Assembly (NCBI RefSeq): GCF_000379765.1
Contig: NZ_KB903443.1
Location: forward strand, 62,001-126,000
DNA length: 64,000 nt
DNA from: Flexithrix dorotheae DSM 6795
Lineage (GTDB): Bacteria > Bacteroidota > Bacteroidia > Cytophagales > Flammeovirgaceae
Reading direction: 5' to 3'
The notes under the pieces were generated by a model. That model saw only the letters and a program-made list of their open reading frames with translations. It did no database searches and was not told where the DNA came from. A program made the translations under genes and the position numbers. Shown piece by piece: positions 2-4,185 of this stretch. The first letter of the stretch is position 1. Each line of letters starts with the position of its first letter.

Positions 2-1651
2 CCAGTCTATTCTACTACTGAAACACTTAAAAACAAATTTTTAGATTCCAGGGGGATAGCCAAATTACAAAGGGTTTTATTACCACAAGCCTTTGATAAA
101 ATCCCGGAGACCTTGCCTAATTACATCCTTGAGCGTTACAAATTTATTCCCAGAAATGTGGCCATCGCCAATGTGCATTTCCCTAAGGATACCAAAATTC
201 TTGCTCAGGCAGTTTCCAGGCTTAAATTTGAAGAGCTATTTTATGTTCAGCTCAAAATGCTGAATCTCAAGCAACATCATCATGCAAAATTCAAAGGTCA
301 GGTATTTGCCCACATCCCTACCGTTACAGAATTTTACAATAATCATTTGCCTTTCGATCTTACCAATGCCCAAAAAAGAGTAATACGGGAAATATACAAG
401 GATATGAAAACCGGCCACCAAATGAACCGTTTGCTTCAGGGAGATGTGGGAAGTGGGAAAACCATTGTAGCTTTTATTTGTATGCTGATGGTACTTGACA
501 ATGAAGCACAGGCATGTATGATGGCCCCAACGGAAATTCTTGCCGATCAACATTACCAGGGGCTAAAAGAATATGCTGATAAACTGGGAATCAGGATTGC
601 CAAACTAACAGGTTCTACCAGAAAAAAAGAGAGAGCGGTAATTCATGAAGGACTATTGAATGGGGAAATTAAAATTATTGTAGGAACACATGCACTCATT
701 GAAGATACAGTAGATTTCCAAAATCTTGGACTTTGCGTGATTGATGAACAACATCGTTTTGGAGTAGCTCAGCGGGCAAAGTTGTGGAATAAAAGAAGTG
801 AAGCTTACCCGCATATTTTGGTGATGACAGCCACTCCCATCCCCAGAACACTAGCCATGACTTTATATGGTGACCTGGATGTTTCTGTAATTGATGAATT
901 ACCTAAAGGCAGAAAACCTATTCAGACTGTTCATTATTTCGATTCTAACCGACTAAGAGTTTGGGGCTTCATAAAGTCTCAGGTGAAATTAGGCAGGCAG
1001 GTTTATATTGTTTATCCATTGATTGAAGAGTCTGAAAAAATGGATTATAAAAACCTGATGGATGGCTATGAAAGTGTTTGCAGGGCATTCCCTGATTATC
1101 AGATCAGCATTGTGCATGGGAAAATGAAAGCGAAGGACAAGGACTTTGAAATGCAGCGCTTCATTAAAAAAGAAACTCAGATTATGGTGGCTACCACTGT
1201 AATTGAAGTAGGGGTAAATGTGCCCAATGCCTCCGTAATGATCATAGAAAATGCCGAAAAATTTGGACTGGCACAACTCCACCAGCTTAGAGGAAGAGTA
1301 GGAAGAGGAGCCGATCAATCCTATTGTTTATTGATGACCAGCTTTAAATTGAGCAAGGAGGGCAAAATCAGAATAGACACTATGGTAAGAACCAACAATG
1401 GTTTTGAATTAGCCGATGTGGATTTAAAACTAAGAGGACCAGGAGATTTAAGTGGTACGCAACAAAGCGGTGTGCTGGATTTGAAATTTGCAGACTTGGG
1501 CAAGGATGGGAAAATTATTCAGGAAGCCAGGAATTTAGCCAAAAGGATTTTAGAAGCCGATGCGACACTGGACAAACCAGAAAATCAGATATTAAAAAAC
1601 AGATTGAGGAAACTAGAAAAAACCCAGACTAACTGGAGTAGGATTAGTTGA
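2..1651 (+). CDS. recG: ATP-dependent DNA helicase RecG (5' truncated by window edge)
   Basis: RecG is a superfamily 2 helicase that remodels stalled replication forks and branch-migrates Holliday junctions. The frame is open from base 2 with no start, so roughly the first 150 residues of a usual ~700-residue RecG lie outside the window. Visible are Walker A (GDVGSGKT), the DEQH box (DEQHRFG), motif III (TATPIPRTLA) and the C-terminal helicase motif QLRGRVGRG, followed by the RecG wedge-distal tail ending in NWSRIS. The last 210 bp, positions 1443-1652, recur almost perfectly at 2868-3077, so the 3' end has been duplicated. The gene itself looks intact. Family assignment is certain from the motif set; only the N-terminus is unseen. 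Confidence 0.97.
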   Translation, partial: PVYSTTETLKNKFLDSRGIAKLQRVLLPQAFDKIPETLPNYILERYKFIPRNVAIANVHFPKDTKILAQAVSRLKFEELFYVQLKMLNLKQHHHAKFKGQVFAHIPTVTEFYNNHLPFDLTNAQKRVIREIYKDMKTGHQMNRLLQGDVGSGKTIVAFICMLMVLDNEAQACMMAPTEILADQHYQGLKEYADKLGIRIAKLTGSTRKKERAVIHEGLLNGEIKIIVGTHALIEDTVDFQNLGLCVIDEQHRFGVAQRAKLWNKRSEAYPHILVMTATPIPRTLAMTLYGDLDVSVIDELPKGRKPIQTVHYFDSNRLRVWGFIKSQVKLGRQVYIVYPLIEESEKMDYKNLMDGYESVCRAFPDYQISIVHGKMKAKDKDFEMQRFIKKETQIMVATTVIEVGVNVPNASVMIIENAEKFGLAQLHQLRGRVGRGADQSYCLLMTSFKLSKEGKIRIDTMVRTNNGFELADVDLKLRGPGDLSGTQQSGVLDLKFADLGKDGKIIQEARNLAKRILEADATLDKPENQILKNRLRKLEKTQTNWSRIS

Positions 1652-1652
1652 A
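1443..1652 (+). repeat. Direct repeat, copy 1: 3' end of recG
   Basis: This 210-bp stretch is the last ~69 codons of recG plus its stop. It aligns base for base with 2868-3077 at a constant offset of 1425; by eye only two positions differ, both in the first 50 bp. It is the copy inside the intact gene. Confidence 0.95.
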
Positions 1653-1706
1653 CCACCGAATGTAAGCTTTTTAGGTTATCACCTTCCTCCAAACTTTTTT
1701 AATTAC

Positions 1707-1740
1707 AAGTCTTGATATCGCTAAGACTTATACCAGTTGG
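1707..1740. repeat. Stem-loop plus ACCAGTTGG element, copy 1
   Basis: A perfect 7-bp stem (AAGTCTT/AAGACTT) with a 9-nt loop is followed by two bases and ACCAGTTGG. A related element with a compensated stem (AAGGTC/GACCTT), the same 9-nt loop length and the same ACCAGTTGG tail lies at 3136-3167. Both sit 54-58 bp after a copy of the recG tail. They may be a REP-like family or a shared terminator-like element; the function is unknown. Confidence 0.55.
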
Positions 1741-1751
1741 AGGTATATAAA

Positions 1752-2135
1752 TTATCTTACAGGTGGAATAAAAGGTACTTCTTTCCATCCTTCTTTTGGA
1801 GCTTTAATATACTCTGGTAATTTCTTTTTTAAATAAATTTTGTTAAAGCTAGGATTTTCCGTTGAAAATTTCACAATATACCTTCCTCCTTTTTCTTGAG
1901 CCTCCCATCCATATATATCACTCCCAATATAGTCTTCATCCAAATATCTAAATTTGAATCTAATATTTTGTCCTCCTCTAGATGTGCTATATTTTTCGAT
2001 AGTTTCACCAATAGTAAACCGTGGAAATTTCCTCAAACTTTTTTCTTTTTTAAAAGCCTTGTATGAAAAAAAGACAAAGAATAATAGAAGAATTGTAAAA
2101 CTAATAATGCCTACAATAGAGTTCTTGCCTTTCAT
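1752..2135 (-). CDS. Small membrane-anchored hypothetical protein (127 aa)
   Basis: I do not recognise the family. The protein has one N-terminal hydrophobic helix (about residues 7-25) followed by a basic patch and a soluble beta-rich domain of about 95 residues, predicted to face one side of the inner membrane. The pattern of a single helix plus a small beta domain recalls DUF3592-type proteins, but I see no diagnostic motif. It lies between the two copies of the recG tail, so it belongs to the inserted or duplicated segment rather than to a conserved neighbourhood. Base composition is very AT-rich, like the 3180-3542 gene just downstream. Confidence 0.6.
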   Translation of the reverse strand: MKGKNSIVGIISFTILLLFFVFFSYKAFKKEKSLRKFPRFTIGETIEKYSTSRGGQNIRFKFRYLDEDYIGSDIYGWEAQEKGGRYIVKFSTENPSFNKIYLKKKLPEYIKAPKEGWKEVPFIPPVR

Positions 2136-2185
2136 TTATTTTTGATCGTAAATTTTTTAAAAAAATTATTTGTTAATCCCCCATC

Positions 2186-2208
2186 GCTGGTGCACGCGTG
2201 TCGCGTGT
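2186..2208. repeat. REP-like GC-rich hairpin, left copy
   Basis: A 23-bp GC-rich sequence contains the dyad CACGCG-3 nt-CGCGTG followed on one side by the tag GCTGG/CCAGC. An inverted copy with one mismatch lies at 2841-2863, so the two bracket the RAYT gene. It stands out strongly from the AT-rich surroundings. RAYT proteins are known to act on such REP hairpins. Confidence 0.8.
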
Positions 2209-2228
2209 ACCAATTCCACAATGCCTTT

Positions 2229-2780
2229 CTAACCATCAATAAAGTCAATTTCCAAAAGGCCCTTTCCACCGCTGTAATCTATGGCACTACTATACTTCCA
2301 ATGCCAAGGTTCAGCCACAAAGCCAGCAACTACCGGATTGGCATGAATGTATGAAACTTTTTGTTCGATCACTTCAGGACTCCACAATTCAATAGGTTTG
2401 TTATGATGCTGCCATACTTGACTTCTCGATACATTACTACTCTTTTTTGCCGCTCGCTCCATCATCCAAAGAAGCCATTCTTTTCTACTTTCCTGAGGAT
2501 TATCTGCTATTGATTTTCTTAAAGCTTTTGAGGTAAATTCTTTAAAACGACCAAGAACCTGAGCTGGATTGTTGTCACTGGCTCGCATAATCAAATGTAT
2601 GTGACTCGGCATGATACAATAGCAAAATATTTGCAAACCCAGATTTTTTCTGCAATAATCAAGGCTATTAATGAGCAGGTTAAAGTAATCCTCACGTACC
2701 ATAATATCCATCCAATATACGGTTGCAAAACTCACAAAATACAAACCTTCCTGATTTAAAAACTTATATTTTCGACTCAT
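2229..2780 (-). CDS. REP-associated tyrosine transposase (RAYT, Y1/IS200-like)
   Basis: This is a single-domain HUH-type nuclease of the Y1 transposase superfamily, which nicks single-stranded DNA at REP hairpins through a covalent tyrosine link. The metal-binding HxH is seen as PSHIHLIM (H60, H62). The helix carrying the likely catalytic tyrosine reads SYIHANPV (Y144), and the typical PWHW motif follows at residues 158-161. The 183-residue length is usual for RAYT. The gene is full length with an ATG start. Inverted GC-rich hairpins lie just outside it (2186-2208 and 2841-2863), as expected for a RAYT and its cognate REPs. RAYTs are generally single-copy domesticated genes and not self-mobile insertion sequences, but this one sits exactly inside a duplicated segment. 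Confidence 0.92.
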   Translation of the reverse strand: MSRKYKFLNQEGLYFVSFATVYWMDIMVREDYFNLLINSLDYCRKNLGLQIFCYCIMPSHIHLIMRASDNNPAQVLGRFKEFTSKALRKSIADNPQESRKEWLLWMMERAAKKSSNVSRSQVWQHHNKPIELWSPEVIEQKVSYIHANPVVAGFVAEPWHWKYSSAIDYSGGKGLLEIDFIDG

Positions 2781-2840
2781 TTAGCTAATATACAGAACAT
2801 TAGAAAATTTATCATGGATGTGATTGGCTTAATAATAGAC

Positions 2841-2863
2841 ACACGCGACACGCGTGCGCCAGC
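2841..2863. repeat. REP-like GC-rich hairpin, right copy (inverted)
   Basis: This is the reverse complement of 2186-2208 with one mismatch (22/23), including the perfect 6-bp CACGCG/CGCGTG stem and the CCAGC tag. It ends five bases before the duplicated recG tail begins at 2868, which places the duplication junction directly at the edge of the element. Confidence 0.8.
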
Positions 2864-2867
2864 TTGT

Positions 2868-3077
2868 GAGATTTAAGTGGTACGCAACAAAGCGGTGTGC
2901 TTGATCTGAAATTTGCAGACTTGGGCAAGGATGGGAAAATTATTCAGGAAGCCAGGAATTTAGCCAAAAGGATTTTAGAAGCCGATGCGACACTGGACAA
3001 ACCAGAAAATCAGATATTAAAAAACAGATTGAGGAAACTAGAAAAAACCCAGACTAACTGGAGTAGGATTAGTTGAA
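2868..3077 (+). pseudogene. recG 3'-end fragment (direct repeat copy 2)
   Basis: A second copy of the last ~69 codons of recG, with the same stop codon, sits 1425 bp downstream of the intact copy. Only two substitutions are visible (tgctggattt against tgcttgatct). It has no start and no upstream reading frame, so it is a dead fragment. The near-identity implies either a recent event or ongoing gene conversion. It marks the far boundary of a ~1.2-kb segment (1653-2867) that carries the 127-aa gene and the RAYT. Confidence 0.93.
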
Positions 3078-3135
3078 ACACCTTTATTCTAGCATTCTCT
3101 ATTTCCAACAGTTTATAGTTCAAGTTTTTCACAGG

Positions 3136-3179: not shown

Positions 3180-3542
3180 CTATAAAGCTAGTGAATAAAG
3201 CAGAAAAATCACATAACTATCTCTAAACCATCCTTTATTTGTAGCATTAACTTCATCTAATTTTTTTTTGAAAAATTTGGGGTCTTTAAACACTAAATAA
3301 TGTCCATAGAATAAAAATCCTGCAAAAATTGACAAACATAAAAAAGACAATATCAAGGGGAATTTTTCCTTAAAGAAAATTTTATTCAATGCCCTTAAAA
3401 TAATCATAATTAAACTAGATAAATAAATTCCTCCCTGTAATGCCGAAAAACCCAATTCAGCATTAAATGAAATTTTTATAATGATATTTATTCTGTAAAA
3501 AAAATTGGTAATCTTAAAAAAGATCCATTGTATCAAATTCAT
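3180..3542 (-). CDS. Small polytopic membrane protein, possibly 5'-altered
   Basis: I do not recognise the family. The 120-residue product has about three hydrophobic segments and a lysine-rich stretch near residues 90-100. The ATG at 3542 is the first in frame, but the frame stays open upstream to a TAA at 3672-3674, encoding a tryptophan- and glycine-rich stretch (containing PWHWEPAGGW) with no good start codon. This suggests that the gene has lost its original 5' end or uses a non-ATG start. It lies beside the duplicated recG tail and is as AT-rich as the 1752-2135 gene, so it probably belongs to the same variable spot. Confidence 0.5.
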   Translation of the reverse strand: MNLIQWIFFKITNFFYRINIIIKISFNAELGFSALQGGIYLSSLIMIILRALNKIFFKEKFPLILSFLCLSIFAGFLFYGHYLVFKDPKFFKKKLDEVNATNKGWFRDSYVIFLLYSLAL

Positions 3543-3642: not shown

Positions 3643-4185
3643 TTAACCTTTCCCCATTTCCACCAACTTATTTACCGTTCTCCAATTTCTGGTAGTGGCA
3701 ATTACTTTCAGTTTTTGTTCGATTAAATTATTGGAAAATTTGGTAGTGCCATAGCCATTGGGGCAATGCAGGTAAATTGCCTTGCCGACCAAAACCACTT
3801 TATCTTCTCCACTTTTTACCGCTTGTAGTTTTTCAAAATTTTCAGCAGCAGGAATTTCATCCAGAAAAGTAACTAGTAGTTTTCTATCATCATTGTCCCA
3901 GGTAGAATCATAAGGATTATGGTTGGCTACTTCTTCAAATTCTGCCACTGTTTTCACAATTACCGGAACATCAAACCCATATTTTTCTTTTATTTTGGCT
4001 GAGATGTTTCCAGCCAGAATTTTTGCATCAGTTTCAGTAAAATCAAAAATCACATTTCCACTCTGAATATAAGTCTGGATATTTCCAAAATCTAATTCGG
4101 ACAAATGAGCCTTCAGCTCGGCCATTTTAATTTTCTTCTGACCACTCACATTTATTCCCCTTAAAATTGCGATATACTTTCCCAT
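3643..4185 (-). CDS. DUF1697 family protein
   Basis: The N-terminus MGKYIAILRGINVSGQKKIK is the hallmark of DUF1697, and the YIQSGNVIFDF segment (about residues 39-49) is also typical. The 180-residue length is normal for the family, whose biochemical role is not established. The start is ATG, 14 bp after the stop of the polysaccharide deacetylase gene, so the two are probably cotranscribed from upstream of 4835. Confidence 0.9.
   Translation of the reverse strand: MGKYIAILRGINVSGQKKIKMAELKAHLSELDFGNIQTYIQSGNVIFDFTETDAKILAGNISAKIKEKYGFDVPVIVKTVAEFEEVANHNPYDSTWDNDDRKLLVTFLDEIPAAENFEKLQAVKSGEDKVVLVGKAIYLHCPNGYGTTKFSNNLIEQKLKVIATTRNWRTVNKLVEMGKG

Follow-up and report, generated by a model that had tools for sequence, protein, structure and literature searches.

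The duplicated 3' end of recG in Flexithrix dorotheae and its possible origin in recombination anchored in the gene

In Flexithrix dorotheae DSM 6795 the helicase gene recG has two 3' ends. Within the stretch of 64,000 nucleotides analysed here (the window; contig NZ_KB903443.1, positions 62,001 to 126,000 of the forward strand), a 210-nt segment comprising the end of recG is present both in the gene itself and, as an orphan tail, on the far side of a 1.2-kb insert that contains a small open reading frame (ORF) and a gene for a RAYT (REP-associated tyrosine transposase; REP, repetitive extragenic palindromic). The locus thus raises the question of how a housekeeping gene acquired a second end, and whether the RAYT was responsible. 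We report that duplicated recG ends recur elsewhere with unrelated cargo, and we favour, with moderate confidence, recombination anchored in recG as the cause, either through homologous exchange at one end of the incoming DNA and a join without homology at its other end, or through a circle integrated by a single crossover.

The recG gene starts before the window and occupies positions 1-1651 on the plus strand (stop codon 1649-1651; DEAD, Helicase_C and RecG_dom3_C domains; an open frame of 709 aa in the genome, which comprises 9.54 Mb in 101 contigs, the window's contig being 624 kb). Specifically, the direct repeat reported from a sequence-only reading of the locus was confirmed at 1443-1652 (copy 1) and 2868-3077 (copy 2), both on the plus strand, with two substitutions in 210 nt; extended to 1443-1657 and 2868-3082 it covers 215 nt at 98.6% identity. 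The copies differ at 1477 (G/T) and 1481 (T/C), both differences being synonymous, and the surrounding sequence diverges immediately on either side, the homology ending one nucleotide after the recG stop codon. Copy 1 is the genuine in-frame, working 3' end (RecG_dom3_C, 8.4e-32; ORF to 1651). Copy 2 is a displaced tail of 68 codons plus stop, with an in-frame TGA directly before it and no recG upstream. The tail occurs only at these two places in the whole genome (E 0.001). As a background for direct repeats we sampled 60 stretches of the genome (1,214,031 bases in total; four picked for holding a RAYT and one for a hairpin). Repeats of at least 120 nt and at least 93% identity within 6 kb were limited to the recG pair and a second, non-coding one around a different RAYT, and since only one other pair in the sample is that long, similar and close, the recG repeat is beyond chance.

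The small gene and the RAYT noted between the repeats in the sequence-only reading are both present, as an ORF of 127 aa (1752-2135, minus strand) whose N-terminus is hydrophobic by eye, and as a RAYT gene at 2229-2780 (minus strand) with SHIH and YIHANP motifs that scores above the cut-offs of NCBIfam NF047646 (86.7 bits; cut-off 80) and Y1_Tnp (26.1; cut-off 23). An inverted-repeat search identified REP-like arms at 2186-2215 and 2834-2863, an inverted 30-nt pair with 87% complementarity framing the RAYT. The right arm is separated from the displaced tail by the four bases TTGT (2864-2867), an illegitimate-type junction, so that copy 2 starts on the fifth base after the hairpin, as had been noted.

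Comparison with the closest relative examined (G001; same genus, recG 97% identical at the amino acid level over the part searched and 85% at the nucleotide level) argues for an insertion beside a recG end that was formerly single. Following the earlier suggestion to inspect related genomes for an empty site, we found a single recG end in G001 and, beyond it, the DUF1697 gene that in the window lies at 3643-4185 (minus strand), though the intergenic DNA of G001 is its own, with another small ORF and a REP-like remnant (5 mismatches). Among the matches listed in a recG search of 58 genomes, F. dorotheae (G000) included, a second tail was seen in G000 only; a later profile search added an independent second tail in the genome G004. 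Because G001 has a single end, and because the two tails differ by about 1% as against about 15% between the recG genes of the two species at the nucleotide level, the duplication is recent as judged by sequence divergence. G001 has T at both variable sites and each copy departs from it at one of them, so the substitutions do not tell which copy is older. Copy 2 adjoins the region leading to DUF1697, and for this reason it is taken as the original recG end and copy 1 as the later arrival. Of the initial proposal that an integration restored the end of recG, the insertion beside a once single end is thereby supported, while the RAYT as its agent is not.

A BLAST survey of 106 recG loci, each with at least 500 nt of downstream sequence, revealed clear duplications of the recG tail in the window and at four other loci, with repeat lengths of roughly 50-250 nt across the cases. 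In G004 (seen as L009 and L249) the repeat is 118 nt at 97% identity and an acyltransferase gene lies between the tails; a single base is deleted in copy 2 and a terminator-like hairpin comes after it, so that the distal tail is the one out of use. At L156 (JAESTK010000236.1, 6752-8407) a repeat of 248 nt at 93% accompanies an AbiEii toxin gene, whose AbiEi-like neighbour falls short of the Pfam cut-off; the second tail is degenerate, and the contig ends in copy 2. In G516 the copies (228 nt, 98%) are 5.4 kb apart with TonB receptor and DUF4249 genes between them. At L191 (SCUG01000152.1, 827-3690; a metagenome-assembled genome of Saprospiraceae) recG is followed by a row of PIN toxin, XisI and DUF6932 cargoes, each followed in turn by a recG tail (106, 50 and 104 nt at 87, 84 and 74%). 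The outermost long tail is the most diverged and the nearest the least, which is what stacking predicts. Four inserts were tested for terminal inverted repeats and none had any; the repeat starts differ between the recG cases compared, with no common core seen. Control queries against the downstream DNA of other loci gave 19 weak matches in 315 tests, and the sole strong match was the window's own second tail.

These observations are consistent with the following course of events. A piece of DNA derived from a close relative, with the donor's recG 3' end and behind it a hairpin (1686-1743), the 127-aa ORF and the RAYT with its REP-like arms, would have entered by recombining with recG at one end while its other end was joined without homology (homology-facilitated illegitimate recombination); alternatively, a closed circle may have been integrated by one crossover in the recG tail (Campbell-type). 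Both outcomes are reported for incoming linear DNA in the consulted sections of an E. coli study (PMC3240628). By either route recG would have been completed by the incoming 3' end (copy 1), the one originally present in the recipient (copy 2) would have been displaced downstream together with its old neighbourhood (an ORF of 120 aa and DUF1697), and the RAYT and the small ORF would have been carried along as passengers. The donor, the route of entry and the choice between the two routes are what we infer from this arrangement. Homology is confined to one end, with 210 nt alike but for two bases and different sequences before copy 2 and after both copies. Moreover, variable repeat lengths and inserts lacking terminal inverted repeats are as random illegitimate joins predict. 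The unrelated cargoes, the stacking at L191 and the divergence that begins directly behind the recG stop codon fit this course of events as well. Some points weigh against this explanation. No donor genome was found among the genomes searched, the 127-aa ORF having distant matches only; the REP arm ends exactly 4 nt before the join, a position seldom expected of a random break; and homology-facilitated illegitimate recombination is rare in tests, the figure given in the same sections for E. coli conjugation being 3e-10 per recipient cell (PMC3240628).

Could the RAYT instead have caused the duplication, by cutting beside the right REP and in recG, releasing a single-stranded circle with the recG tail, the small ORF and the RAYT, and reinserting it at the same position in recG? 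The HuH and Y motifs are present in its ORF, and the junction 4 nt outside the right REP-like arm is presumably a place where a Y1 enzyme could cut. However, the left edge of the insert shows no REP arm, no RAYT match was obtained at the four further loci with a duplicated recG end (tblastn, E 0.1), and among 40 other RAYT loci from F. dorotheae and relatives (39 with a RAYT at threshold and thus effectively tested, 36 of these with at least 1 kb on both sides) none had the end of an unrelated gene duplicated around the RAYT. Of 45 RAYT hits examined, the window's among them, 12 had direct repeats of at least 60 nt within 1 kb on both sides and 19 had inverted ones, as REP units beside RAYTs would give; the repeats flanking the screened RAYTs were non-coding or lay within the RAYT or small ORFs. 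The best remaining hint of a role for the RAYT is that the three best-matching RAYTs of the genome (in the window and at L108 and L109) all have close direct repeats on both sides. That RAYT activity mobilised a piece of a host gene, as had been considered, is not supported by the 0 of 40 loci and the recG duplications without RAYT; we regard it as highly improbable and the RAYT as probably a passenger. A tandem duplication of the recG tail plus the first cargo, with later replacement of the second cargo copy, would account for the occurrence of ACCAGTTGG within a hairpin-like stretch at almost equal offsets after both tails, as well as for the small minus-strand ORF that follows each. Yet while the tails are 99% identical, the stretches after them show no significant similarity (100 of 1000 shuffles attain their alignment score of 13), nor do the two ORFs (26 of 500 shuffles as good). 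A simple tandem duplication, including the RAYT-assisted one considered in the sequence-only reading, is therefore disfavoured, and the version with replacement, which needs an extra exact event, is very unlikely. Long target-site duplication by a transposon of IS1634 type has a counterpart in a related genome, Belliella filtrata (L149, 2410-4509), where an IS1634-family element with perfect 12-bp terminal repeats lies inside a 223-nt direct repeat (99.6%) covering the end of a 258-aa gene. For the window this is largely refuted by the insert, which has no terminal inverted repeats and no DDE transposase match among its ORFs, and we give it scarcely any credence. An assembly error or a strain mixture might be suspected in an assembly of 101 contigs, but two single-nucleotide differences separate the copies and the join runs into unique sequence on a contig of 624 kb, which makes an artefact very improbable.

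A further possibility is preferential insertion at the recG 3' end, where small defence or immunity cargoes would stack, each with a recG tail, by means of an unknown recombinase. Toxin-antitoxin or immunity-like cargo is present in several cases, and L191 resembles a stack with older tails further out. By BLAST, a duplication was found at 3 of the 102 recG loci (100 distinct) not picked for having one, i.e. after omission of the window and the three loci added following the profile search; G516 entered the set only after that search had found it. In a matched control of 559 ORFs in 80 named recG loci, a duplicated gene end was seen for 2 of 78 recG ORFs and 1 of 481 others, the latter being the IS1634 case. 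Fisher tests gave p = 0.054 for 2/79 against 1/480, 0.019 for 3/104 against 1/480 and, with the insertion sequence case set aside, 0.0055 for 3/104 against 0/480, where the denominators 79, 104 and 480 are estimates for which a recount gave 78, 102 and 481. In contrast, when 836 genomes were searched with a recG-tail profile, 809 had a match but only G000, G004 and G516 had a second tail near recG, that is 2 of 808 without the window (p = 0.54 for 2/830 against 0/480); the BLAST and profile rates are not equivalent, since the profile needs a fairly long tail. Second profile matches away from recG were set aside: a recG-tail-like sequence with stop on another contig than recG (G565:C6:602915-603121), matches at contig ends or on other contigs (G143, G276, G669), another gene of recG length on another contig (G504) and matches within other ORFs (G513, G649, G672, G021). 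The variable repeat starts, with no common core seen, also speak against such a landing site. Phages and plasmids as carriers of the recG tail were rejected: none of 16 pattern matches in IMG/VR contigs was confirmed, a phage collection gave one candidate match, in a record without annotation, and of six plasmid records with a match four had it in annotated recG genes, one was without annotation and one had no feature under the match. A gene-end control of 803 ORFs in the F. dorotheae genome gave two hits besides recG, both set aside. One (L240) represents two long ORFs with similar ends; the other (L239) is a tandem duplication of a lipoprotein-type gene whose upstream part also includes the final 41 nt of a response-regulator gene next to it, strictly speaking a small gene-end duplication. 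A preferred landing site served by an unknown recombinase appears unlikely. Quite unlikely is the broader idea that, in the Bacteroidota, the 3' end of recG serves as a general site of accretion, where small toxin-antitoxin, immunity or RAYT cargoes would arrive time and again; with each arrival a new recG end would displace the earlier one outward, building integron-like stacks (best seen at L191) without a known integrase. Among open-access papers listed for recG as an integration site, none described this arrangement.

As to the remaining features of the locus, the hairpin at 1686-1743 lies between the convergent recG and 127-aa ORF and is probably a two-way terminator; a related copy follows recG in G001. 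The only other match in the F. dorotheae genome to the pattern of its inner stem (1705-1728) is at L049 (G000:C21:80055-80613), roughly 180 nt upstream of an ORF related to that of 120 aa. We dropped a reading as an integron attC-like site because of the position between convergent genes and because the mismatch-tolerant pattern finds only two such sites in the genome. The 127-aa ORF matched no Pfam or NCBIfam family. In the 58-genome set, which also served for the searches with the 127-aa and 120-aa ORFs, it has matches of 27-32% identity in 6 of 57 other genomes, one of these being inside a 584-aa ORF and probably spurious. One relative (29%) directly adjoins an Rhs-core protein in G002 (TIGR03696, 34.1 bits; cut-off 32.5), on account of which we guess that the window's ORF might be an orphan immunity-type gene; another, in G052 (L052), adjoins a RAYT-like ORF (Y1_Tnp 22.6 bits, just below the cut-off of 23). 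Two more ORFs in the insert, of 63 and 70 aa, overlap the 127-aa ORF or the RAYT on the opposite strand and had no Pfam match. Apart from the RAYT, the insert's four ORFs of at least 60 aa matched no recombinase or transposase family, nor any integrase, the rest of the genome not having been searched for integrases. Downstream of copy 2, in the older region, the 120-aa ORF (3180-3542, minus strand) has a single relative in the 58 genomes, 36% identical and within F. dorotheae itself (G000:C21:80257-80613). With respect to the RAYTs, L108 and L109 (G000:C1, at about 608.9 kb and 126.2 kb) lie between direct hairpin-rich repeats, and at L108 a 151-aa ORF is present between two such repeats beside the RAYT. 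A scan of the 40 screened RAYT loci for duplicated gene ends gave one case, the end of the RAYT gene itself (L118; G036:C9, 6001-7029), duplicated just downstream over 157 nt at 94%.

Among known systems, the window's RAYT can be compared with RAYT/REPtron subclass 2.6 of Quentin et al. 2018, which, in the sections consulted, includes RAYT group 5 of Bertels et al. (PMC6006769). It resembles this subclass in length (183 aa against 179 in the table), the WQ and YIH-NP motifs, its occurrence in Bacteroidetes and secondary structures on both sides, but has SHIH where the description there gives NH[LIV]H, and YIHANP where it gives YIH[QN]NP (PMC6006769). The REP arm was not found multiplied in the 1.2 Mb of the genome sampled; with up to 5 mismatches, 1.21 of 9.54 Mb yielded the window's two arms and one match with 5 mismatches. 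The repeats of about 200 nt at the insert edges recall the long target duplications, 8 to 514 bp, that the available portion of PMC2266710 gives for two IS1634-family elements, but the window insert lacks the terminal repeats and a DDE transposase match.

We consider the event in the window, real and recent, to be well explained as one of a known kind; the recurrence at recG is the part that deserves a larger matched count. A displaced gene end may serve as a sequence-level marker for insertions that lack an integrase, and the locus suggests how genes of orphan immunity type, and likewise RAYT genes, can arrive at a core locus with no transposition of their own; should the recG end prove to be preferred, it would point to an unknown route of accretion. 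The closest parallel is provided by the immunity-gene arrays of the Vibrio cholerae type VI secretion system, for which homology-facilitated illegitimate recombination has been proposed as the origin, the same suggestion being cited for Rhs loci (Sci Rep 2017, PMC5361080, as far as the consulted part of the text goes). There, as in the window, homology is one-sided, new cargo arrives beside a conserved gene, the old end is shifted downstream and orphan immunity-type genes accumulate; in the window, however, the anchor is a housekeeping helicase gene and not an effector gene, the immunity role of the small ORF is putative, and a RAYT comes along.

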